From a virus, in IMG/VR virus record IMGVR_UViG_3300021091_000395, positions 1 through 25,000 of that record: 25,000 nt of DNA. One strand, 5' to 3'. Position 1 is the first letter of the stretch. The number at the start of each line of letters is the position of its first letter. Positions 6,694 through 24,999 of this stretch are shown here, in pieces. The notes under the pieces are model-generated. The model saw only the letters and a list, made by a program, of their open reading frames with translations. It did no database searches and was not told where the DNA came from. The position numbers and the translations under genes were made by a program.

Positions 6694-7242
6694 CTATAAT
6701 AATTCGATATCGTAATATGAAAATCTAAACGATGCATTGCTTGTAATAACACCTTCGGCATTTGATCCGACGTTAAACGAAAGTGATGACAAGTAAGTTG
6801 GAAAAATATCATGAAACTTAACACGAATTCTTGGATTGTTTTTGTTTGAATAAATTGTAAGAATTCCATCTGTATATACGGCAGGTCGACGATTATTCAT
6901 TAAACTCTGCATATAAGAAGACTTTGTTACTTTTGCTAAATCAACATATTCTTTAAAGTCGGTAGGAAATGTTGCAGCGCGAATCCAATTATGAATTTCT
7001 AACCAAGAACTTAACGTTTCATTTACAAGAAATGTTGTGCTAAAGGCATCATAAACTGCTTTTTCTCCTGGCACAAATAAATCAATAAATGGTGTAAAGC
7101 GTTGAATTTCAGTCAATGAAATTCCAGGAATAGATGCATCTTGACAAAAATATGTGACGTCAGGTAATCGATCAAAGATCATCTGAAACTTATGCGGTTG
7201 AAGAAAATCTGTATTAATTGGATTTCGTGTTAATGCTGTCAT
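6694..7242 (-). CDS. Tail-tube-fold structural protein (gp19 paralogue, possible gp54/tube-initiator role)
   Basis: This 182-residue protein shares the layout of the window's own tail tube protein gp19. Both have an N-terminal block with a PG turn (IPG, residues 38-40), a central E-x-H/E-x-W segment (LEIHNWI, 81-87), and near the end F-x-D-x-FP-x-x-LS (143-152 here, 129-138 in gp19) followed by a strand ending in an aromatic pair. Related proteins recur in marine T4-like phages just after gene 23 and are annotated as virion structural proteins. In T4 the tube fold is also used by gp54 and gp48 at the baseplate, so a tube-initiating or baseplate role is plausible but inferred. It overlaps the coiled-coil gene upstream by 29 bases. 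Confidence 0.7.
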   Translation of the reverse strand: MTALTRNPINTDFLQPHKFQMIFDRLPDVTYFCQDASIPGISLTEIQRFTPFIDLFVPGEKAVYDAFSTTFLVNETLSSWLEIHNWIRAATFPTDFKEYVDLAKVTKSSYMQSLMNNRRPAVYTDGILTIYSNKNNPRIRVKFHDIFPTYLSSLSFNVGSNAEGVITSNASFRFSYYDIELL

Positions 7243-8884: not shown

Positions 8885-11800
8885 TTAGGCTTTTGGAGCC
8901 GTTTTTGATATTGATTGAACATATCGACTCATAATATTATTTGTAATTTCTACTTCTGGTTCTTCATTAAGAGCGACTCTTTGAAGTTCCTTTACCTCAC
9001 TTTTCACTTGTACTTTAGTCGGGAAGTAGTTCTCGCGTAATACAGCGAGTTTTTCTTCATAATCACCTTCTGTGGTGAACTCCACACCCTCTGCGAGTGC
9101 CTTCATTTTCTCTGCTTGAACTGCTGTGAGTCCAGAGCAGAATGATTCTGTGACAATTGCTTTCTGAACAAAGTTAAGTTGCTCTTGAAGAGAAGCAATT
9201 GTTGCGGTCTGATCTGCAACATGTTTATGTACATTCTCTACATACTCAGCTGCTGATTCAAGTTCAGATGCAAGTGTTTCTGCAACATCAACTTTTTCTT
9301 CAGGAATCTCGATGTAGTGCTCTTGGAACAATGCACGTAAACCAGAGATAAAGTCTTCAGCGAGCTCAGCACGTAGACCTGTTTCGACAGCAACTTTATT
9401 CTCTTGCATCCATTGTTCAACAACATAGTTGAGATATTCATCAACTTGCTCTGTCAATTCGTCTTTAATTTCCTCATATGCCTGTCCTAGAACTTGGTCA
9501 TTTGAAGCAACAAGCTCTTCTAGAATTTTTTCGACACGAGATGATACAGCTGCTTCGAAGATAAGTGTGGCTTTGGCGCGGAATTCTTCAGAGAGTGATT
9601 CGCCATTAAACAGCGCATCTACATCCTCTCTCATATTGCCTTGGAACTGCTTGACCGTTTCTTTAATTGCAATCATTCTTTGCTCACGAATTTGCTCTTC
9701 GGTGAGTTCAGCTGTTTTATCTTCAGCTTCTTCATCATCTTGCATATTTTGATCAGATTGCTGAGGCATTTGCTGAGGCTTTTGCTGAGGCATTTGCTGA
9801 GGCTTTTGCTGAGGCTTTTGCTGAGGCTTGAGCCGACCTTGTGGGTTCTTTCCACTTTCGCTGAGATTTTCATTCTCATTGAATGTCTCATTTGCTTCCT
9901 CTTGATTTTCTATGTCGTTCATATTCGAATCCTCAGTGCTTTCATTTGTTGTTTTACCACGAAATAAATTTAATGCCCCTTTGGCTAAATCATAAACCGC
10001 TTGTCCAGCGGCGCCAGCTTTGGCAGCGTCTCCAAAATCTTGACCAGTTAATGCGCCGCCAATACCTGTTCGGAGACCAGTACGACCAGCCCTTTGTGCA
10101 AAATCAATAAATGCATTTCCAAGACCATATTTATCATTTCGTTGATTTGAACTTGTAGTTTGATTTGCGCTAGAGGAATCTGCAGAAGCACCTCCACCAG
10201 AGGAAGAATCGGATCTAGATCTACCTCTTCTATCAATTGGATCTGAATGCCAATCCTCTAAACTGTTATATCTACCTTGAGGTCTTGCAGCGCCATCATT
10301 TCCCTGTTGACCTGCTGTTTGCTCTGGTGGACCTGATCCTGCAGGATCAGGTCGACCTGATCCTGTACCTGAACCGCCAGCACCAGTGTTGGTAGCGCCA
10401 GCACCAGTGTTGTCAGCACCAAAGTTCAGACCCTGCTGAACTAACGTTAGCATTCTATTAGCATCAGCACCAAGATTTGTACTAGCAGCTGAACCACCAT
10501 CACTCTGCGCCTGGTACGCGACTGGTTGTGTAACTGGTCCTGAACCACCAGCTGGTTTTGAACCACCAGCTGGTTTTGAACCACTGCCATCAGATCCACC
10601 AGCACCCATTCTATTAACAGCAGCAAGAGCTTGCTTAAAATCAGCATCTAATTTTAAATTGCTTTCTTTAGTTTTACCAAGGCGTTCTCTCATTTTATAT
10701 GCATAATCTGCGCCAACATTAGGATCAACTCCGAAACCTGCAGCTAGTTGTGCACCAGATCTACGAATTGATGCTCCTGTTTTGCCATAGCGATCTTCAT
10801 CACTCATTTCAGATGGTGCTTGAAATTTGGTTCCTGTCCAGAATTTGCCTTTATTTGCACCAGTTCCCCTTTCGCCATACTTCGGTGTTGCCACTGGTGC
10901 TGCCGCTGATGTTGCTGTCGTTGCAGCAGCGTTTGTTGCAGCAGCATTTAATGTTGCTGTCGTTGCAGCAGCATCTGTTTTAGCGCGTCGACGACGTGGA
11001 CCACCCCTTTCAAATAAGTTTACAACGTATTCAGCTTGATCCTCTGATAATGAATTAATAAACTGATCTAGTTGCTCTTCATTTAATGTTGACAGTTGTT
11101 GAATGATATCTGTTTCTTCAGCAGCCATTCTATTTACTCCTCTTAATCGATCTTTGTTAGCGTTAATATCTCTCATGAAATTTCTAACTGAGTCTGGATC
11201 TTCATCGTCGTTGTCTTGATTTCTATTTTGTGCCACGCGTGTTTGTATATTCTCAGAATCATCTTGAACATTTTGATTAGATTGCTGAGGCTTTTCTCGT
11301 TTTTGTGCAGCTTGATTAAGTGCTGTTGAAGCGACGCTACCAGCAAGATCTGATCCTGTTCTTTGACCAACTGCTCCACCTGCTGCACTTGTAATATTTC
11401 CAACAACTGCATCTCTCACACTGCCGCCTTGCAGTTTAGCAGAAGCAACATCGCGTGCAAGATTACCTACAAGCTCTGACCCTGTTGCTTTTGCAATACT
11501 GCCACCAATTCCTCCAGTCACTCCACCAATCGCACCAGATTTGGCTCCTGATTTTAAGCCTGCTGAAAAACTACCGCCTGACAATTTACTTTGAACACCA
11601 CCCTGAATTGCTCCCGATATGCTTTGTTGAACAACATTTTTCGCCAAGGTTTTTAAACCTGCTTTCAAACCTGCTTTTGCGACACCACTAGCAGCGGCAC
11701 CACCAGCGCCACCAGCTGCTGCACCAGCAAAACCTAATTTTCCAGCAATTGCACCACCAATTCCAGGTAAAAGAAATCCAGCCGCAATTGGTGCTAATTT

Positions 11801-12565
11801 CTTTAAAATTTTTCCAATACTTCTTTTCTTTTTAAGGACCCATTGTCCACGTTTAAATTTCCATTTCTTACCCTTGGGTGGAGGTTCTGTTGGTTTTGGA
11901 GGGCGTCCTGTATTCGGAGCTGGTGTCGGAGCTGGTGTCGGAGCTGGTGCAGAGGCGTTAACATTACCATCAGATCCACCACCAATACTTGAATTTTCAT
12001 TATCACGTGCTGCTAATTCAGCAGGATCTGTTTCTTCATCTAAAGATGCAAGTTGAATTGTGTATACTATTTCCTCTTCATTTAATCTTTCAAAAAATTT
12101 AACTAGTTCTTCATCGGATTGTGATTCAATAAAATCTTCTAGTTGATCTGCGTCCTCTTCCAACTGCATGAATTCATCTTCAGTAAATTCTCGTTGTTTA
12201 AAATCATTAATAATCGCTTCAATGAGTAATTCTTTTGCTCCATCTTCACCATATTGTTCAATTAAATTTTCCATTAAATTATTTGATTTCTCAGGCTCTT
12301 CAGATTCAGAATTTTCCTCTGACTCTTCATCCTCGGTTGGAAGTTTCTTAATTTCTTCTGCTGGAGCTCCAGGACGACCTGGTTTTGGTGTTGCATTTAT
12401 TGATTGTGCACTCATTAAACCTGGAGACACAACATCTCCAGTCATCATTTCACCACCTAAATCATTGTGTTGTATAGCAGCCATGCGAATAGGCTCTTTG
12501 CCAGCATTCGCCAATGACGCTGCAAGAATTTCAGCTGCCGACTCGTGTAATGTTTTATGAGCCAT
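8885..12565 (-). CDS. 22: gp22-type prohead scaffold, greatly expanded (1226 aa)
   Basis: In T4, gp22 (269 aa) forms the internal prohead core and is destroyed by gp21. Here both ends look like marine T4-like gp22. Residues 1-75 have LHESAAEILAASL, a DLGG box and an EEIKKLP box. Residues 955-1226 are long acidic helices, including LSEEFRAKATLIFEAA (991-1006) and a DEYLNYVVEQW segment (1042-1052). Between them lie about 850 added residues: acidic helices (95-175), Pro/Ala linker (204-232), a strongly basic patch (231-256), Gly/Ala-rich stretch (258-420), second acidic helix (494-518), Ala/Thr, Gly/Ser/Pro and Gln-rich low complexity (530-800), a second Gly/Ala stretch (816-870), and a PQQ-repeat (913-936). 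Its own ribosome binding site is weak, whereas internal ATGs at codons 480 and 882 have good ones. No frameshift is seen. It lies between gp21 and gp23 as expected. Confidence 0.88.
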   Translation of the reverse strand: MAHKTLHESAAEILAASLANAGKEPIRMAAIQHNDLGGEMMTGDVVSPGLMSAQSINATPKPGRPGAPAEEIKKLPTEDEESEENSESEEPEKSNNLMENLIEQYGEDGAKELLIEAIINDFKQREFTEDEFMQLEEDADQLEDFIESQSDEELVKFFERLNEEEIVYTIQLASLDEETDPAELAARDNENSSIGGGSDGNVNASAPAPTPAPTPAPNTGRPPKPTEPPPKGKKWKFKRGQWVLKKKRSIGKILKKLAPIAAGFLLPGIGGAIAGKLGFAGAAAGGAGGAAASGVAKAGLKAGLKTLAKNVVQQSISGAIQGGVQSKLSGGSFSAGLKSGAKSGAIGGVTGGIGGSIAKATGSELVGNLARDVASAKLQGGSVRDAVVGNITSAAGGAVGQRTGSDLAGSVASTALNQAAQKREKPQQSNQNVQDDSENIQTRVAQNRNQDNDDEDPDSVRNFMRDINANKDRLRGVNRMAAEETDIIQQLSTLNEEQLDQFINSLSEDQAEYVVNLFERGGPRRRRAKTDAAATTATLNAAATNAAATTATSAAAPVATPKYGERGTGANKGKFWTGTKFQAPSEMSDEDRYGKTGASIRRSGAQLAAGFGVDPNVGADYAYKMRERLGKTKESNLKLDADFKQALAAVNRMGAGGSDGSGSKPAGGSKPAGGSGPVTQPVAYQAQSDGGSAASTNLGADANRMLTLVQQGLNFGADNTGAGATNTGAGGSGTGSGRPDPAGSGPPEQTAGQQGNDGAARPQGRYNSLEDWHSDPIDRRGRSRSDSSSGGGASADSSSANQTTSSNQRNDKYGLGNAFIDFAQRAGRTGLRTGIGGALTGQDFGDAAKAGAAGQAVYDLAKGALNLFRGKTTNESTEDSNMNDIENQEEANETFNENENLSESGKNPQGRLKPQQKPQQKPQQMPQQKPQQMPQQSDQNMQDDEEAEDKTAELTEEQIREQRMIAIKETVKQFQGNMREDVDALFNGESLSEEFRAKATLIFEAAVSSRVEKILEELVASNDQVLGQAYEEIKDELTEQVDEYLNYVVEQWMQENKVAVETGLRAELAEDFISGLRALFQEHYIEIPEEKVDVAETLASELESAAEYVENVHKHVADQTATIASLQEQLNFVQKAIVTESFCSGLTAVQAEKMKALAEGVEFTTEGDYEEKLAVLRENYFPTKVQVKSEVKELQRVALNEEPEVEITNNIMSRYVQSISKTAPKA
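8888..9922 (-). CDS. Possible nested short scaffold from internal start at codon 882 of gp22
   Basis: An in-frame ATG at 9920-9922 is preceded, 7 bases upstream, by GAGGA (9930-9934). This resembles the spacing used by gp23, gp18 and gp20 in this window and is better than the site before the full-length gp22 start. The product would be 345 residues, the normal size of marine T4-like gp22, and would hold the PQQ repeat plus the whole helical scaffold domain. Nested scaffold genes are known elsewhere (lambda Nu3, herpesvirus UL26.5). The use of this start is inference only. The shared stop codon is at 8885-8887. Confidence 0.35.
9734..9767. repeat. 34-bp direct repeat, copy 2, inside gp22
   Basis: This matches 11258-11291 at 31 of 34 positions. 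Both copies encode PQQS(N/D)QN(V/M)QDD. The spacing is 1524 bases, exactly 508 codons, so recombination between the copies would delete or duplicate the block without shifting frame. Confidence 0.85.
9759..9830. repeat. Six tandem 12-bp units (PQQ repeat of gp22)
   Basis: TGCTGAGGC(A/T)TT occurs six times in a row on the plus strand, the last unit ending in G instead of T. On the coding strand this gives alternating KPQQ and MPQQ units (gp22 residues 913-936) immediately before the conserved scaffold domain. The units are nearly identical, suggesting recent slippage. Confidence 0.9.
10542..10577. repeat. Two tandem 18-bp units (PAGGSK repeat of gp22)
   Basis: Two identical copies of GAACCACCAGCTGGTTTT are followed by a partial third. 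They encode a GSKPAG-type linker inside the low-complexity insertion of gp22. Confidence 0.8.
11258..11291. repeat. 34-bp direct repeat, copy 1, inside gp22
   Basis: This is the partner of 9734-9767 (31/34 identical, same orientation and reading frame). It marks the end of the first architectural unit of the gp22 insertion. Confidence 0.85.
11915..11950. repeat. Three tandem 12-bp units (PAPT repeat of gp22)
   Basis: CGGAGCTGGTGT occurs three times, the last with one change at its end. It encodes the APAPTPAPTPAP linker (about residues 206-217) just before the basic and Gly/Ala-rich part of gp22. Confidence 0.85.
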
Positions 12566-13257: not shown

Positions 13258-14337
13258 CTATACTCCGAGAGCTGCTCGTCTTCTCATTGATCTTCGTCTT
13301 TTCATAAGAGCTCGAGCCATTTTTGCTTTTCTTTTAATTTTGCCACGACGTTGGCCACGTTTGCGACGAATTCTTTCTTGCATTGACATGCGCTTGAGTT
13401 TACCACCACGAATCGTATATCCTTTTACAGCAGAGACTCTTCTACGTCTTTGCACTTTACCCTTTCTTATACGAACTCTGACAACATTTGTGCGACCTTG
13501 ACGCATTATATTGCGATTTGCTTCGCTTAATGATTCTGAATTTTCTGTAACCTCTTCATGTAATCCATAATGTGCTTGACGTAAGTCTTCAGCATCTGAA
13601 GCCATGGCCATGTCTGAACTAATTTCTCCACGCTCTAAACGTCCTTGCAAATGCGCAGCTCTACGTTCTGCTTCTTCTTGTTGATCTGGTGTTAATTTGG
13701 AAGGAGGAATTAAATTAAATTGTTGTTGTTTTTCCGTTGGTACATTTTGCGCAATAGCACGACCAGAGCGTAATGGTGAATGATTCGCATCAAAGGGGAC
13801 AAAACCTTTGATAACACCTTTTGTACCAAGATTACGCATGAAGTTTTTAAGTTTTTCTCTATTTTCTTTTTTGCCTTCCTCTATCGCAATTAATGTTTTA
13901 TATAAGTTTAATTTATGTGTAGCAATTTCATTTATTAATAAAAATATTTCTTCTTTTATATCTTCACGACTTCTATAATTTTTTAATTCTCGAGTCTTAA
14001 CGATGCGTGGATTTAACGCTTGCATTGTCTTAATACGTTTTTCATCTTCATGATTAAATGGTTCATCTTTATCATTTTCTTCATCATCTACATTCGTATC
14101 TAATTCAGAATTATCTTTTTGAGTTGAAATTTTTGCAGGTTGCTCAGCTAAAACTTTACCTAAAACATCACGTGATACAGCGTTAGCCAAATCAACACTA
14201 GTATCCGTTGGTTTTATACCAAGTTTTCTTTTTTGTTCCATCTCTTTTTGCATAATCGATCTTTTTTGATTTGCACCTTGCCTCTGCTTAAAATCGGAAT
14301 CGCCGCGATCTTCGAATTTTTCTTGATCAACATTCAT
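13258..14337 (-). CDS. Prohead core-region protein with very basic C-terminus (position of T4 gene 68)
   Basis: This 359-residue protein is charged and low in hydrophobic content. The N-terminal 100 residues are Lys/Asp/Glu-rich and probably disordered, and residues 120-170 are helical. Residues 277-359 hold runs such as KVQRRRR and RRKRGQRRGK, with IRGGKLKRMS between them. By my count, 37 of the last 87 residues are Arg or Lys and one is acidic. L270-S271-E272 just before this tail fits a gp21 site, so the tail may be released to bind packaged DNA. A similar basic tail occurs in core-region proteins of other T4-like phages. The location between gp67 and gp21 is that of T4 gp68, but T4 gp68 is only 141 residues, so homology is uncertain. 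It overlaps the preceding gene by 4 bases. Confidence 0.72.
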   Translation of the reverse strand: MNVDQEKFEDRGDSDFKQRQGANQKRSIMQKEMEQKRKLGIKPTDTSVDLANAVSRDVLGKVLAEQPAKISTQKDNSELDTNVDDEENDKDEPFNHEDEKRIKTMQALNPRIVKTRELKNYRSREDIKEEIFLLINEIATHKLNLYKTLIAIEEGKKENREKLKNFMRNLGTKGVIKGFVPFDANHSPLRSGRAIAQNVPTEKQQQFNLIPPSKLTPDQQEEAERRAAHLQGRLERGEISSDMAMASDAEDLRQAHYGLHEEVTENSESLSEANRNIMRQGRTNVVRVRIRKGKVQRRRRVSAVKGYTIRGGKLKRMSMQERIRRKRGQRRGKIKRKAKMARALMKRRRSMRRRAALGV

Positions 14338-15059
14338 TGAATTGTCTCAGTAAATTTTTTTATTTTATTAAATGATTCTTTACTTTCAAGTATCATATCA
14401 TTAAGTCGTATTTTATTTTGTTCATTTAACATTGAGTACAATATTTCAATTTTTTTAAATACATCTTTTTCTATATTAATTTCTTCGCCAGTGGCAAATA
14501 AAACAGGCACAACGTCTTCTTTTAAAAACCCTGCAGCTGCTGTTTGACTAGTGCGAGCATATGTATTTAAATCACCGAATCCTTTATCTAAATCGTAAGG
14601 GACTGGAAACGTTAATCCGTATTTACTATCAGTATACATTACAACTCGTTGGCGATTCGGAAACATGCGTATTGCTTGTCTTCGCAAAACAAGCACAGCA
14701 GGTGGATTAAATTCTTCATTTAATAGCTCTGTTTCTTCTCTCATATCGCGTAATGTACGACGTAGTTGTGGCATGGTTGTATTTACAATCGTAGCAACTG
14801 GCAATTTTAAAGCAGATACAGCATCCCTTTTTTGCGGACTCATATCTCGTAAGATTCGAAAGTGAGAATGTTTTGGATTTTTTCTTGCGCGATTAATATA
14901 ATCACTGATTGCAGAGGTAGCAAGAGAGGTATTAACACTGCTTCCCAAACGTAATGTGTTTCTAACAAGTGCAATTCTGTCACGAAGCTGGCTACCATTG
15001 GTTTTATTTGCAGCTGCAGCCTCGTCTAAATTTAACTTATCATTGTTTTGATGATTCAT
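14334..15059 (-). CDS. Conserved protein of unknown function in the prohead core cluster
   Basis: This 241-residue protein has no enzyme motifs I can name. Residues 20-75 are basic and helical. Residues 110-165 form a strand-rich core (PPAVLVLRRQAIRMFPNRQ, then VVMYTDSKYGLTFPVPYD) resembling a segment I have seen in uncharacterised proteins of marine T4-like phages. The C-terminal 60 residues are helical and Lys/Glu-rich. The start overlaps the gp67 stop by one base (TAATG) and the end overlaps the basic core protein by 4 bases, so all three are coupled. Location in the 20-67-x-y-21-22-23 cluster suggests a role in head assembly. T4 has only gp68 in this interval, so this is an extra gene relative to T4. 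Confidence 0.68.
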   Translation of the reverse strand: MNHQNNDKLNLDEAAAANKTNGSQLRDRIALVRNTLRLGSSVNTSLATSAISDYINRARKNPKHSHFRILRDMSPQKRDAVSALKLPVATIVNTTMPQLRRTLRDMREETELLNEEFNPPAVLVLRRQAIRMFPNRQRVVMYTDSKYGLTFPVPYDLDKGFGDLNTYARTSQTAAAGFLKEDVVPVLFATGEEINIEKDVFKKIEILYSMLNEQNKIRLNDMILESKESFNKIKKFTETIQ

Positions 15060-17243: not shown

Positions 17244-17756
17244 TTAACCAACATTAACTTCTTGTGAAGTCCAATATTGATACTGAAATGTTACTGCATA
17301 TTCTTCGATTGCATCATTTTGATCCCAGCTAATGTCAATTGCTGAAAGATCCACAGGAAACATATCAATGAATGTATAACTCTTAATAATATCGCCCTGT
17401 TTCCCAAACTGATAAACATCAGCATCAAAAGAGTATTGAGATAAAAATGCTTCTGAAAGATTGCTCTCGTGACCAACGATTCGTGACATCCACTCTTCAA
17501 GCTGATTACGAATAATAAAATCCTCATCATTTAATACTTGAATTGTCCATTCAGGAAATACTCTATTTCCTGCCATCTTAATGCTTCTACCAAAATATGG
17601 AATTTCAATTGTTCCTATTGTAGAGCCAGGAAGCTGTGCTGTTTTTGCAGTAAAGGTAAGTTTTTCATCAAACACTGGAATGTTGACTTCAAACAGATTA
17701 GGACGTGCACCGTCAAATGGAAAATTACTTTTAAAGTCTGTAATATTAAAAGGCAT
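17244..17756 (-). CDS. 19: gp19 tail tube protein
   Basis: This is the inner tube of the contractile tail; hexameric rings stack to form the DNA channel. The 170 residues match T4 gp19 (163). Features of the family are an N-terminal NLFEVNIP strand, AQLPGSTIGTIEIPYFGR (40-57), LEEWM (86-90), and SYTFIDMFPVDLSAI (126-140) followed by a beta strand ending in QYQYW. A good ribosome binding site (AGGAG, 7 bases before ATG) and a near-consensus late promoter element lie in the 26-base gap after gp18. The window's 182-residue protein at 6694-7242 is a likely paralogue. Confidence 0.96.
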   Translation of the reverse strand: MPFNITDFKSNFPFDGARPNLFEVNIPVFDEKLTFTAKTAQLPGSTIGTIEIPYFGRSIKMAGNRVFPEWTIQVLNDEDFIIRNQLEEWMSRIVGHESNLSEAFLSQYSFDADVYQFGKQGDIIKSYTFIDMFPVDLSAIDISWDQNDAIEEYAVTFQYQYWTSQEVNVG

Positions 17757-21580: not shown

Positions 21581-22582
21581 TCACGTTATGTTCGGTGCAT
21601 GATCAATATCGATATCAAATCCAAATGCAGTATTTGCATTAGCTGATATTGGATCTGGTTCAATTGTAATTCTATTTAACTGATAATCTGTCGCTGAATT
21701 ATAAGAATATAGATTGTAAGCAGCATTCGAAACTGCTCCAGTGATAGTATTTCCAGAGGTGAACGAACCGCTTATATCACTTACAACAAGTATATTAGCT
21801 GTATTATTCCAAGAACTTACGAATCCTCTTACTGAAGCTCCATCAACATTACGACCTTGATAAACCATTTCACCAATTTTAAATTGTCCTGTTCCTGTAT
21901 TTAAATTAAATCGTTTTGCTTCGTTACCTCCACTGTTAAACTCATAAGTATTCGCAGTAACTTTGCGAATAATTTCAACATTGCTCACAGGACCATATAG
22001 ATAACCCTTCATGGTAAAACCTAAATTCCATTGTAAAATTCTTAATTCTTGTGGTGGACCCTCTGTTCCACCAGAATTATAATTTACACTTTGAAGAATT
22101 AAAGGAACATCAACTGGATTTCCAACACCTACCAAATCTAATGTCATCGTATAATCTGGATTAAAGTAAGGTAAGATTTGTTCAATTAGTTGTGTGCCAT
22201 CCTCTGTATTTCGAACATAGATGAAAAGTGAAAAATTAAAGTTATATGGAGCAAGAAAGGTTGTTTTAATTGCTGTTTGGTTTAATGGTCCATACTGATT
22301 AATATATGGTGAAATTTTGCGAGTAGTATCGTAAGCGATATCGGTCAATTCAAATGACATACGAGGCAATGTGAGTTGAACACGTCGATCAAGATTTGGA
22401 TCTTGTGTAATACGCGAATAAAACTTTTCTTTTGATAGGTAATTCAATGGAACTACAATGCGTTCTAGTTCAGTAGTTCCCGCTAAGTTATAACGAAACA
22501 ATTTTAAATTATTGAACATCGAGCCGAAAGCAACGACCATCTTCCGCGTTATGCGATGATAAAAGTGTTGACCAGATAACAT
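21581..22582 (-). CDS. 15: gp15 tail sheath stabiliser / tail completion protein
   Basis: In T4, gp15 caps the top of the tail and joins it to the neck. The first 200 residues are the conserved part: HFYHRITRKMVVAFGSMFN (7-25), then a VVPLNYLSKEKFYSR stretch (43-57) and LPRMSFEL (72-79). The 333 residues exceed T4 gp15 (272). The excess is a 60-residue module (234-293) starting FKIGEMVYQG and containing RGFVSSW and ISGSF, which aligns without gaps to a segment of gp14 next door (24 of 60 identical by hand count). T4 gp15 lacks it. It starts one base after the gp14 stop. Confidence 0.93.
   Translation of the reverse strand: MLSGQHFYHRITRKMVVAFGSMFNNLKLFRYNLAGTTELERIVVPLNYLSKEKFYSRITQDPNLDRRVQLTLPRMSFELTDIAYDTTRKISPYINQYGPLNQTAIKTTFLAPYNFNFSLFIYVRNTEDGTQLIEQILPYFNPDYTMTLDLVGVGNPVDVPLILQSVNYNSGGTEGPPQELRILQWNLGFTMKGYLYGPVSNVEIIRKVTANTYEFNSGGNEAKRFNLNTGTGQFKIGEMVYQGRNVDGASVRGFVSSWNNTANILVVSDISGSFTSGNTITGAVSNAAYNLYSYNSATDYQLNRITIEPDPISANANTAFGFDIDIDHAPNIT
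21704..21883 (-). repeat. 60-residue module in gp15, shared with gp14
   Basis: This encodes gp15 residues 234-293. It aligns without gaps to gp14 residues 193-252, with shared anchors E-x-V-x-QG, RG-x-VSSW, I-x-GSF, I-x-G and SNA. It is inserted towards the C-terminus in both proteins. The similarity is at protein level; the DNA has diverged. Confidence 0.8.
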
Positions 22583-22583
22583 A

Positions 22584-23459
22584 TTATGGCTCGTCTAGTG
22601 TTCCAAATGGATTAGATTCTGTAAAGTCTAGAATATTATCTGCTTCATTTTCAAGTAGTACATTCTCTTCAAGTGCATCTGTCTGATTCTCTTGCGGATC
22701 TACGCTAGTCATCGTCCATTGCGCATTTGATTCTGAACCTTTTATAAGTGTATTTGCTGCAAATGATCCTTTGATATTTCGAATAATTAGTTTTCTAGTT
22801 GGTAAATCCCAACTTGAAACGTATCCACGTGCTGTCGCTGAAGCCAAATTGGATCCCTGAAATACAATCTCGTTATTCGTAAATGTGCTCGAGCCACCAG
22901 CTTGCATTGTAAATTCAATTCCATATGCACTTAATTGCGCAATTATATCGATCTCATTTATTCCTGTATCGAAAATTTCACCATTATAACGTAACATCTC
23001 TAGATTTAGAGAGTACATATATGGAGCAACTTTTCCTGCCTGGAAGAAATTCTTTTCCTCTTCAACAAACTTTATCTCCATTATTTTTTCTTGAATGGGT
23101 AGATAAATTAAATCGCCCTCTTTTGGAAGATTCCGAAGTGTTTTAGGTATAACTCGTTCAAATGTTCTTCGTGCTACAGTCACACGTGCTTCTTTTTGAA
23201 TTTGCAAACCAAATTTAGAAAAGAATTCTTGATTACCTTCGAAATCTTGAAATGAGTCAAGATACATATCGATCTTAAAAGCCTTTGTAAATTTTTTAAC
23301 AGAATCATCGCCAAACAATCGATCTAACTCTGATTGAGATTCTCGAGGAAGATAATAAATGTCGATACCATGATTGCGTATGGATTCGATAATCATATCT
23401 TCAATCAGTAGTTGCTCTCGAGTCGCGCCCTGATTGTTAAAATAAACTGACGTTGCCAT
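22584..23459 (-). CDS. 14: gp14 neck protein
   Basis: This head-completion (neck) protein closes the portal vertex after packaging and binds the tail. With the ATG at 23457-23459 it has 291 residues (T4 gp14 has 256). An upstream TTG (23468) would overlap gp13 and is rejected because ATSVYFNNQG right after the ATG is the family N-terminus. Conserved segments are EQLLIEDMIIESIRNHGIDIYYLPR (residues 15-39, in order), DMYLDSFQDFEG, and FSKFGLQI. Residues 193-252 are the module shared with gp15. The last 40 residues are acidic and end in NPFGTLDEP, a motif often seen at the end of marine gp14. One base separates it from each neighbour. Confidence 0.93.
   Translation of the reverse strand: MATSVYFNNQGATREQLLIEDMIIESIRNHGIDIYYLPRESQSELDRLFGDDSVKKFTKAFKIDMYLDSFQDFEGNQEFFSKFGLQIQKEARVTVARRTFERVIPKTLRNLPKEGDLIYLPIQEKIMEIKFVEEEKNFFQAGKVAPYMYSLNLEMLRYNGEIFDTGINEIDIIAQLSAYGIEFTMQAGGSSTFTNNEIVFQGSNLASATARGYVSSWDLPTRKLIIRNIKGSFAANTLIKGSESNAQWTMTSVDPQENQTDALEENVLLENEADNILDFTESNPFGTLDEP
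22704..22883 (-). repeat. 60-residue module in gp14, shared with gp15
   Basis: This encodes gp14 residues 193-252, starting FTNNEIVFQG and containing RGYVSSW and IKGSF. It is the partner of the gp15 segment at 21704-21883. Confidence 0.8.
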
Positions 23460-23460
23460 A

Positions 23461-24222
23461 TCAACCAACGCACATCATTGGAGGCTCTTCAAATACATCG
23501 CGCAGTTTACCCTCGAGCCGTTGAATCTCTTGATCTGCTTCAGCGTAAATCCTTTCTCCATTTATAACCAATCCTCCAGGTAAAGTATAATTACCATATT
23601 TTTTTAGATTAGTTCCCCATTGGCGTTTAAATAATTGAGTTGTATACTCCTTGACCCAAGAATCATTATAAACTCTTTCATAAGAATCTTGATCAACTAT
23701 TCGATTTGCGCGAAATAGTATGTACTCATTTACATTTAATTTAGAATCCCAATCTTGGAACAGATAGAGACGATTTGTCTTTTTATTATATGAAAATGGT
23801 ACATCTCCTGTAATGATCATATCAAGCATTGACAAGTGTTGGCGAGCGATATAATAATAAGCATATGATGAGGCTGTTAAACTATAGAAATCGTTTAAGC
23901 GAATTTGATAGTTAACATCAAATATGTTGAACTCATTTCCGTCTAATGAAGATACCGAGGTGCCAGAAAAAGGAAACACCTGACTTACACCAATTATATT
24001 GTCACATAAGGTGATATACTTGTTTAAAATATCAGCATTCGTTACTTTATGCCCAAGGTACATAGTCTCAGTACCATCGTAGTGATAATCTTGGAATAGC
24101 TGCAAAGCATCGTCCATACGATCGTCGAGCTGATCGTCATCAACATTTATATCGATTACAGGAAAACCAAGATTTCGGAGGCAATGATCTTTAAGTGTGG
24201 ATTTATTGGTAGGTTTCGCCAT
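23461..24222 (-). CDS. 13: gp13 neck protein
   Basis: With gp14 this protein completes the filled head and provides the tail-docking site. The 253 residues are shorter than T4 gp13 (309). Recognisable parts are LKDHCLRNLGFPVIDINVDDDQLDDRMDDALQLFQDYHYDG across residues 10-50 (an acidic, Asp-rich helix typical of marine gp13), ITLCDNIIGVSQVFPF, and NDSWVKEYTTQLFKRQWGTNLKKY near residue 185-208. The ribosome binding site GAGG is 6 bases before the ATG. A candidate late promoter sits between it and the glycosyltransferase. It is followed by gp14 after one base. Confidence 0.92.
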   Translation of the reverse strand: MAKPTNKSTLKDHCLRNLGFPVIDINVDDDQLDDRMDDALQLFQDYHYDGTETMYLGHKVTNADILNKYITLCDNIIGVSQVFPFSGTSVSSLDGNEFNIFDVNYQIRLNDFYSLTASSYAYYYIARQHLSMLDMIITGDVPFSYNKKTNRLYLFQDWDSKLNVNEYILFRANRIVDQDSYERVYNDSWVKEYTTQLFKRQWGTNLKKYGNYTLPGGLVINGERIYAEADQEIQRLEGKLRDVFEEPPMMCVG

Positions 24223-24252: not shown

Positions 24253-24999
24253 TTATTCGATCAATCTACCCTCTCGAGATGTATAAATTCGATCAGGATC
24301 CATGTGAGCAAACTGCTCCCAATTAGGCTCGCCCTCTAATATTCTTTTACCAGTCGTCTCCTCGCCGATATGCTCAATTATATTTTCGCCTCGAGAATTT
24401 TTTAATGTGGCAGAATACATCTGATGAAAATGGTCTAGATAAACCATTATCATTCCTTCATTAATATTAAACTTCCAATAATCTTGGAATGGATATTCGA
24501 TAATATTCTTACGATATAAACTAAAGATTATCGGAAAAGTCTTTGTATTTTTGCTATAGTAAAATTGCTTGAATTGCGTATCGCTCGATTCAATAGTTGA
24601 TGGCTTCTCATTAAAGTACCATGGTTGTCGTTGTAAAACAACCGAGGCAATTTTAGATTCTGACTCGAGACATTCAATCAGATCGTCGACTTTAATTGGT
24701 TCTTTTAGAATTACGTCATCCTCTTGATGAAGAACGTAATCTACATCCATACCTCGGAGCGAGGAGAAGAAATCCGACCAATTTACCGATAGTCCTTTAT
24801 TAACTGAATTTCTCCATATCTCAAATCTATAGCGTTTACCAATCAAATCAAAGATCGCATCATTGCGTGTTCTTGGATAATCATCGACAATAATCTTTCG
24901 AACCTCATGATTTCCATAGTCTAAATTAGACAATGAGTTAAGTGTCGGAAACAGATATCGAATCCTGTTGCAAGAAAAGATTACATGAAGAATCTTCAT
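24253..24999 (-). CDS. GT-A-type glycosyltransferase (family 2-like)
   Basis: This 248-residue enzyme is predicted to transfer a sugar from a nucleotide-sugar donor. The start KILHVIFSCNR is the typical first strand of GT-A folds. VDDYP (38-42) and a NKGLSVNW segment (67-74) fit nucleotide binding, and HQEDDVIL (91-98) supplies the acidic DxD-like metal site. Similar proteins occur next to gene 13 in marine T4-like phages. The acceptor is unknown: virion glycoprotein, phage DNA and host surface glycan are all possible. T4 DNA glucosyltransferases have a different (GT-B) fold, so DNA modification is less likely. The ATG lies one base from the window edge, so its ribosome binding site and a possible earlier start cannot be checked. 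Confidence 0.75.
   Translation of the reverse strand: MKILHVIFSCNRIRYLFPTLNSLSNLDYGNHEVRKIIVDDYPRTRNDAIFDLIGKRYRFEIWRNSVNKGLSVNWSDFFSSLRGMDVDYVLHQEDDVILKEPIKVDDLIECLESESKIASVVLQRQPWYFNEKPSTIESSDTQFKQFYYSKNTKTFPIIFSLYRKNIIEYPFQDYWKFNINEGMIMVYLDHFHQMYSATLKNSRGENIIEHIGEETTGKRILEGEPNWEQFAHMDPDRIYTSREGRLIE

Follow-up and report, generated by a model that had tools for sequence, protein, structure and literature searches.

A small predicted beta domain inserted in the gp14 and gp15 neck proteins of a T4-like phage and in other virion proteins of its relatives

Neck proteins gp14 and gp15 of a T4-like phage each carry a segment that we consider, with a probability of roughly 0.6, to be a homologous copy of an undescribed accessory beta domain of about 70 residues, inserted into several virion proteins and bracing or shielding the head-tail joint. 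The stretch of DNA analysed (the window) comprises 25,000 nucleotides, positions 1 to 25,000 of IMG/VR virus record IMGVR_UViG_3300021091_000395.

Neck genes and their module copies

The nearest isolates by portal protein, at about 50% identity, were Pelagibacter phage Mosig, Methylophilales phage Melnitz and marine cyanophages. The genes concerned and the module copies were located as follows, and genes 14 and 15 were followed by the usual order gp16-gp17-gp18-gp19-gp20.

23461..24222, minus strand: gene 13 homologue (head-tail adaptor); phrog_211, E 4e-41
22584..23459, minus strand: gene 14 homologue (head closure Hc2 / neck protein), 291 aa; phrog_460, E 1.8e-78; PF11649 T4_neck-protein, E 2.5e-36
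22689..22904, minus strand: module copy in gp14, residues 186-257 (ATG numbering), by pairwise homology with the gp15 copy
21581..22582, minus strand: gene 15 homologue (tail sheath stabiliser / tail terminator), 333 aa; phrog_227, E 2.6e-62; PF16724, E 3.1e-58
21689..21904, minus strand: module copy in gp15, residues 227-298, by pairwise homology with the gp14 copy; pLDDT 84-90 in the full-length model

The gp14 homologue scored 125.9 bits against PF11649 (curated cut-off 25) and aligned with T4 gp14 residues 29-184; its start was taken as ATG 23459, an in-frame TTG at 23468 being also possible. The gp15 homologue scored 197.3 bits against PF16724 (curated cut-off 25) and matched T4 gp15 PDB chains by sequence and by fold, with 9mkb as the best fold match (E 1.8e-8) from a model whose core is low-confidence.

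A sequence-only reading of this DNA had aligned gp14 residues 193-252 with gp15 residues 234-293 and counted 24 identities over 60 ungapped positions. With gp14 numbered from ATG 23459 this count was exact, and the span given for these residues, 21704-22883, was correct. The ungapped homology was found to be longer, covering 72 residues (gp14 186-257 and gp15 227-298), with E values of 1e-13 by blastp and 3.7e-14 by phmmer, and a local score of 139 as against 36 +/- 5.6 in 5000 shuffles (maximum 75, z about 18). Chance or low complexity is a vanishingly improbable source of the resemblance, being contradicted by the blastp E value, the shuffle z of 18 and the 72 ungapped positions; judged by sequence, the two modules are true homologues, though old.

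That genes 14 and 15 adjoin and have the module in common would fit a recent duplication or gene conversion between them, yet such an origin is very unlikely, since the codon-aligned DNA identity of the two copies is only 47% (29 +/- 3 for shuffled codons), and the gp14 and gp15 copies split on the module tree at 99/97 across the clade. Because they form separate groups, each is taken to have descended vertically. AU tests of alternative module groupings rejected none (p 0.29-0.42) and did not single out a donor; an ancient duplication is compatible with them.

Identity was 56% in the gp14 module and 74% in the gp14 core, and 48% and 67%, respectively, in gp15, which indicates that the module is under weaker constraint than the cores and diverges faster. 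A scan of the window with the module HMM returned the gp14 and gp15 copies only; the virus record being 25 kb long, the baseplate genes fall outside it. A module search of the gene 13 homologue gave no significant match. Exact repeats sought at the module borders reached 11 bases at most, which is not meaningful.

Several other frames in the window were noted, all on the minus strand. A glycosyltransferase family 2 frame (24253-24999) lies immediately upstream of gene 13, amid structural genes. Two tail-tube (gp19, phrog_45) paralogues are present (17244-17756 and 6694-7242), the second lying right behind the major capsid gene, a position at which Mosig likewise has a second 'tail tube protein' frame and cyanophages have gp3. 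Between the portal and prohead protease genes are frames of 359 and 241 aa (13258-14337 and 14334-15059) with no PHROG match at E <= 0.001. A gp22-like scaffold frame of 1226 aa (8885-12565) matches the head scaffolding protein only over residues 888-1222, and about 880 residues form an N-terminal extension; the gp22 gene of S-PM2 has 1179 bases.

Predicted fold and occurrence in other virion proteins

A small beta domain had been proposed from the sequence, and AlphaFold prediction, from an alignment that left out annotated-phage rows, agreed: the isolated module was predicted at pLDDT 91.7 and pTM 0.77, with five short strands (9-12, 21-29, 34-41, 49-52 and 58-60 of the 72-residue model). 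Unrelated folds had been named as the outcome that would speak against a common module, and the prediction did not come out against a shared fold. In the full-length gp15 model the module was the best-predicted part (pLDDT 84-90); the core was poor (pLDDT 61) because the alignment was shallow, and too weak for placing the module.

The model has the approximately 60 residues and five short strands of SH3-like small beta barrels (Sm, KOW, Tudor, MreC beta domain). Its comparison with the PDB gave no match at E <= 0.001, and the best fold matches, at only E 0.3-3, were MreC, T4-like gp7, PWWP, Sm and NusG KOW, small beta barrels among them. Among predicted viral structures ten matches were obtained at E <= 0.001, of which the named ones were cyanophage virion proteins, one labelled gp14. 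The module sequence profile found nothing significant in the PDB, and neither Pfam nor NCBIfam holds a family for the module, which is unnamed in the domain libraries searched. Weak Pfam matches (HicB-like, tRNA_Me_trans_M) and weak NCBIfam matches were rejected, as they fell far below the cut-offs.

An HMM scan for further copies, which the sequence-only reading had proposed, found them in related phages, both in baseplate proteins and in giant virion proteins. A 172-kb relative (G013) carries five, in gp14, gp15, a 1105-aa gp7-like protein (phrog_17744), a 534-aa gp8-like protein (phrog_438) and a 1069-aa virion-region protein, and an 86-kb relative (G005) carries six, distributed over proteins of these same types; the gp7- and gp8-like carriers of both are baseplate wedge proteins. 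Giant cyanophage virion proteins with the module have 6,376 residues (Syn33) and 6,935 residues (S-SSM4). Overall, the carriers comprise gp14, gp15, gp7-like and gp8-like proteins, the giant structural protein of cyanophages, and a further virion protein described as phrog_358 or VrlC-region, some of the non-neck copies being weak (domain E 1e-3 to 1e-6). Weaker copies were also found in the gp7-like protein (875-1016 residues) of Mosig, Melnitz and HTVC008M. As far as they were read, gp14 and gp15 of Mosig and Melnitz have no module; the whole-record scan of HTVC008M gave copies in the gp7-like frame only, its gp14 and gp15 lying outside the stretch read.

In cyanophages (S-PM2, Syn19, Syn33, S-SSM4, S-CAM9 and Bellamy) the same module occupies the same place, the C-terminal region of gp14 (PHROG 460, head closure Hc2), with a loop that differs from the one here (EVVTG..TSG.TAEV versus EIVYQG.SLA.ATAKGYV). 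It was previously known only as unlabelled sequence within the PHROG 460 family. Of the 50,697 records in the phage collection, about 350 matched at E up to 1, and all of these were from cyanophages or marine. Recurrence in several virion proteins, together with the insertion pattern, supports the earlier suggestion of a mobile structural module in T4-like phages of marine or other aquatic origin.

Insertion sites, gain and loss, and role at the joint

T4 had been described as lacking the module, and no copy was found in its 76-101 kb structural region or in the whole records of T4 and Vibrio phage K571. Homology to T4 stops at residue 184 of 256 in gp14 and at residue 219 of 272 in gp15, and at the module position the T4 chains continue with unrelated linker or tail sequence. 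The module is, as had been claimed, an insertion relative to T4, and also relative to relatives with an empty site. It lies between the core and the conserved tip DILDFxExNPFG in gp14, and between the core and the conserved segment IxPxPxxAxxxxFGF in gp15.

22602..22643, minus strand: gp14 arm-tip motif ADNILDFTESNPFG, residues 273-286, from alignments; kept with or without the module
21614..21670, minus strand: gp15 C-terminal segment ITIEPDPISANANTAFGFD, residues 305-323, from alignments; present also in module-less gp15

Empty gp15 sites with conserved flanks were found in Syn33, Melnitz and five contigs (L239, L243, L250, L253 and L186). In Syn19, S-CAM9, Bellamy and AG-345-E15, nearly the same gp15 C-terminal segment holds a second type of small-domain insert (motif LTVxRG...H..G), which sits about 10 residues further on than the module, ahead of DDFGF; no sequence relation between the two was detected in these searches. 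Some cyanophage gp14 arms add GxGYxxxPxV repeats ahead of or within the module. Because of the second gp15 insert type and these gp14 repeats, both arms are regarded as insertion hot spots. Loci of the LTVxRG...H..G insert in gp15 include L133 12179-13207, L163 2504-3583, L166 2492-3493 and L164 653-1681. The gp14 of Syn33 (L137 42112-43284) has GxGYxxxPxV-type repeats that appear to split the module, a nested insertion.

Among 120 distinct gp14/gp15 pairs, the module was present in both proteins in 105, in gp14 only in six (five cyanophages and L186), in neither in nine, and in gp15 only in none. Close contigs had it in every complete gp14 and gp15, the six listed exceptions being truncated or broken frames. 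The gp15 frame of L128 (2896-3911) is in two overlapping pieces, one of 168 aa and a later one bearing the module, from a frameshift or sequencing error. On the gp15-core tree the distribution of the gp15 copy is accounted for by a single gain, in the common ancestor of the clade to which the window belongs, and a single loss, that of L186. The state of L186 is read as a loss because this contig is nested within the module-bearing clade, its sister L175 having the gp15 copy (support 100/96 and 100/98). Its gp15 is in frame with both flanks kept, and its gp14 retains the module; the gp15 junction was seen in one contig, and no second assembly holds it. With so few changes on the tree, dependence is only weakly indicated by the lack of gp15-only pairs. 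Nearly all of the clade has retained the gp15 copy, an indication that it does something beyond adding bulk.

T4 gp15 is hexameric. So is gp14 (PMC12270204). When the tail docks in T4, gp14 residues 178-256 rearrange, and in the virion they touch gp15 residues 203-245 (PMC12270204). The cores being homologous, the T4 gp14 C-terminal arm and gp15 C-terminal segment are the chain segments that correspond to those here (PMC12270204), and by sequence both module copies fall within stretches matching the T4 contact segments. Position and contacts of the module were inferred from T4 because the PDB sequences searched include no structure of a module-bearing neck. With gp14 and gp15 both hexameric, about twelve module copies would surround the head-tail joint of each virion.

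A direct clamp, in which gp14 and gp15 modules bind one another as a ring of paired barrels and replace the T4 arm contact, is suggested by the location of both copies in segments that touch in T4 (PMC12270204), by the absence of any gp15 module without a gp14 module in the 120 pairs, and by the retention of the gp15 copy across nearly the whole clade. Nonetheless it appears quite unlikely: cyanophages and L186 have the gp14 copy without the gp15 copy, the count of zero in 120 goes back, in essence, to a single gain on the tree, and the module also occurs in baseplate proteins, far from the neck. Similarly doubtful is the fuller proposal that the facing copies form a twelve-barrel collar locking head to tail, from a domain of other virion proteins recruited twice. 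An obligate module-module pairing of gp14 with gp15 is, on the distribution of copies, disfavoured because the cyanophages and L186 keep one copy without the other; an optional pairing would be compatible with that distribution.

The accessory role, which we prefer, would leave the essential gp14-gp15 contact to the conserved arm tips, and joining as such would not need the module. The module would then serve as a rigid knob that braces or shields the head-tail joint, and it may play the same part in baseplate wedges. Its distribution offers a natural experiment: for the same joint there are phages in which both proteins bear the module, others in which one does, and others in which neither does.

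Comparison with phage Ig-like domains, and names transferred with the module

The original study behind the reviewed phage Ig-like domains is reportedly that of Fraser et al. 2006. These are small beta domains, often dispensable, which phages exchange and which occur on several classes of virion protein; weak surface or carbohydrate binding has been proposed for them (PMC9022992; PMC9230969). The module is like them in behaviour, not membership, in that it occurs in several functional classes of virion protein. It differs in being carried by neck proteins, which are outside the five classes listed for Ig-like domains in review (PMC9022992; PMC9230969), and in sitting in-frame within an arm, unlike Ig-like domains at the very end. 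Searches with Ig/FN3/Big profiles gave no Pfam match for either copy or the consensus, and none in NCBIfam, and no Ig-like entry, such as an Ig sandwich fold would be expected to match, was among the 50 best PDB matches of the 72-residue, five-strand model. The findings are best explained by a promiscuous accessory domain resembling phage Ig-like domains in behaviour, without sign of an Ig fold. Phage virions would thus have, at the head-tail joint, a second kind of promiscuous add-on domain, apparently not of the Ig type.

By analogy, the modules might be an outward-facing decoration that weakly binds polymers of host or particle surfaces and helps adsorption. Promiscuity across virion proteins and divergence faster than that of the cores are consistent with this, as is the same pattern in phage Ig-like domains, which are dispensable for tube formation (PMC9022992; PMC9230969). 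No match to a carbohydrate-binding family or fold was found, however, and in T4 the corresponding segments are turned towards another protein (PMC12270204), so that we regard decoration as a tentative alternative, improbable beside the bracing or shielding role.

The module also bears on existing annotation. The gp14/Hc2 names of a giant cyanophage protein and of a gp7-like family are probably misannotations, transferred via the common module, and if so both call for correction. In metaG-MbCM1 (JN371769.1 64240-64434 and 95887-96744), the label 'gp14 neck protein' is attached to a giant structural protein encoded a long way from the neck genes, and the true gp14 is called 'hypothetical'; phrog_3465, the gp7-like family of HTVC008M, is labelled 'head closure Hc2'.
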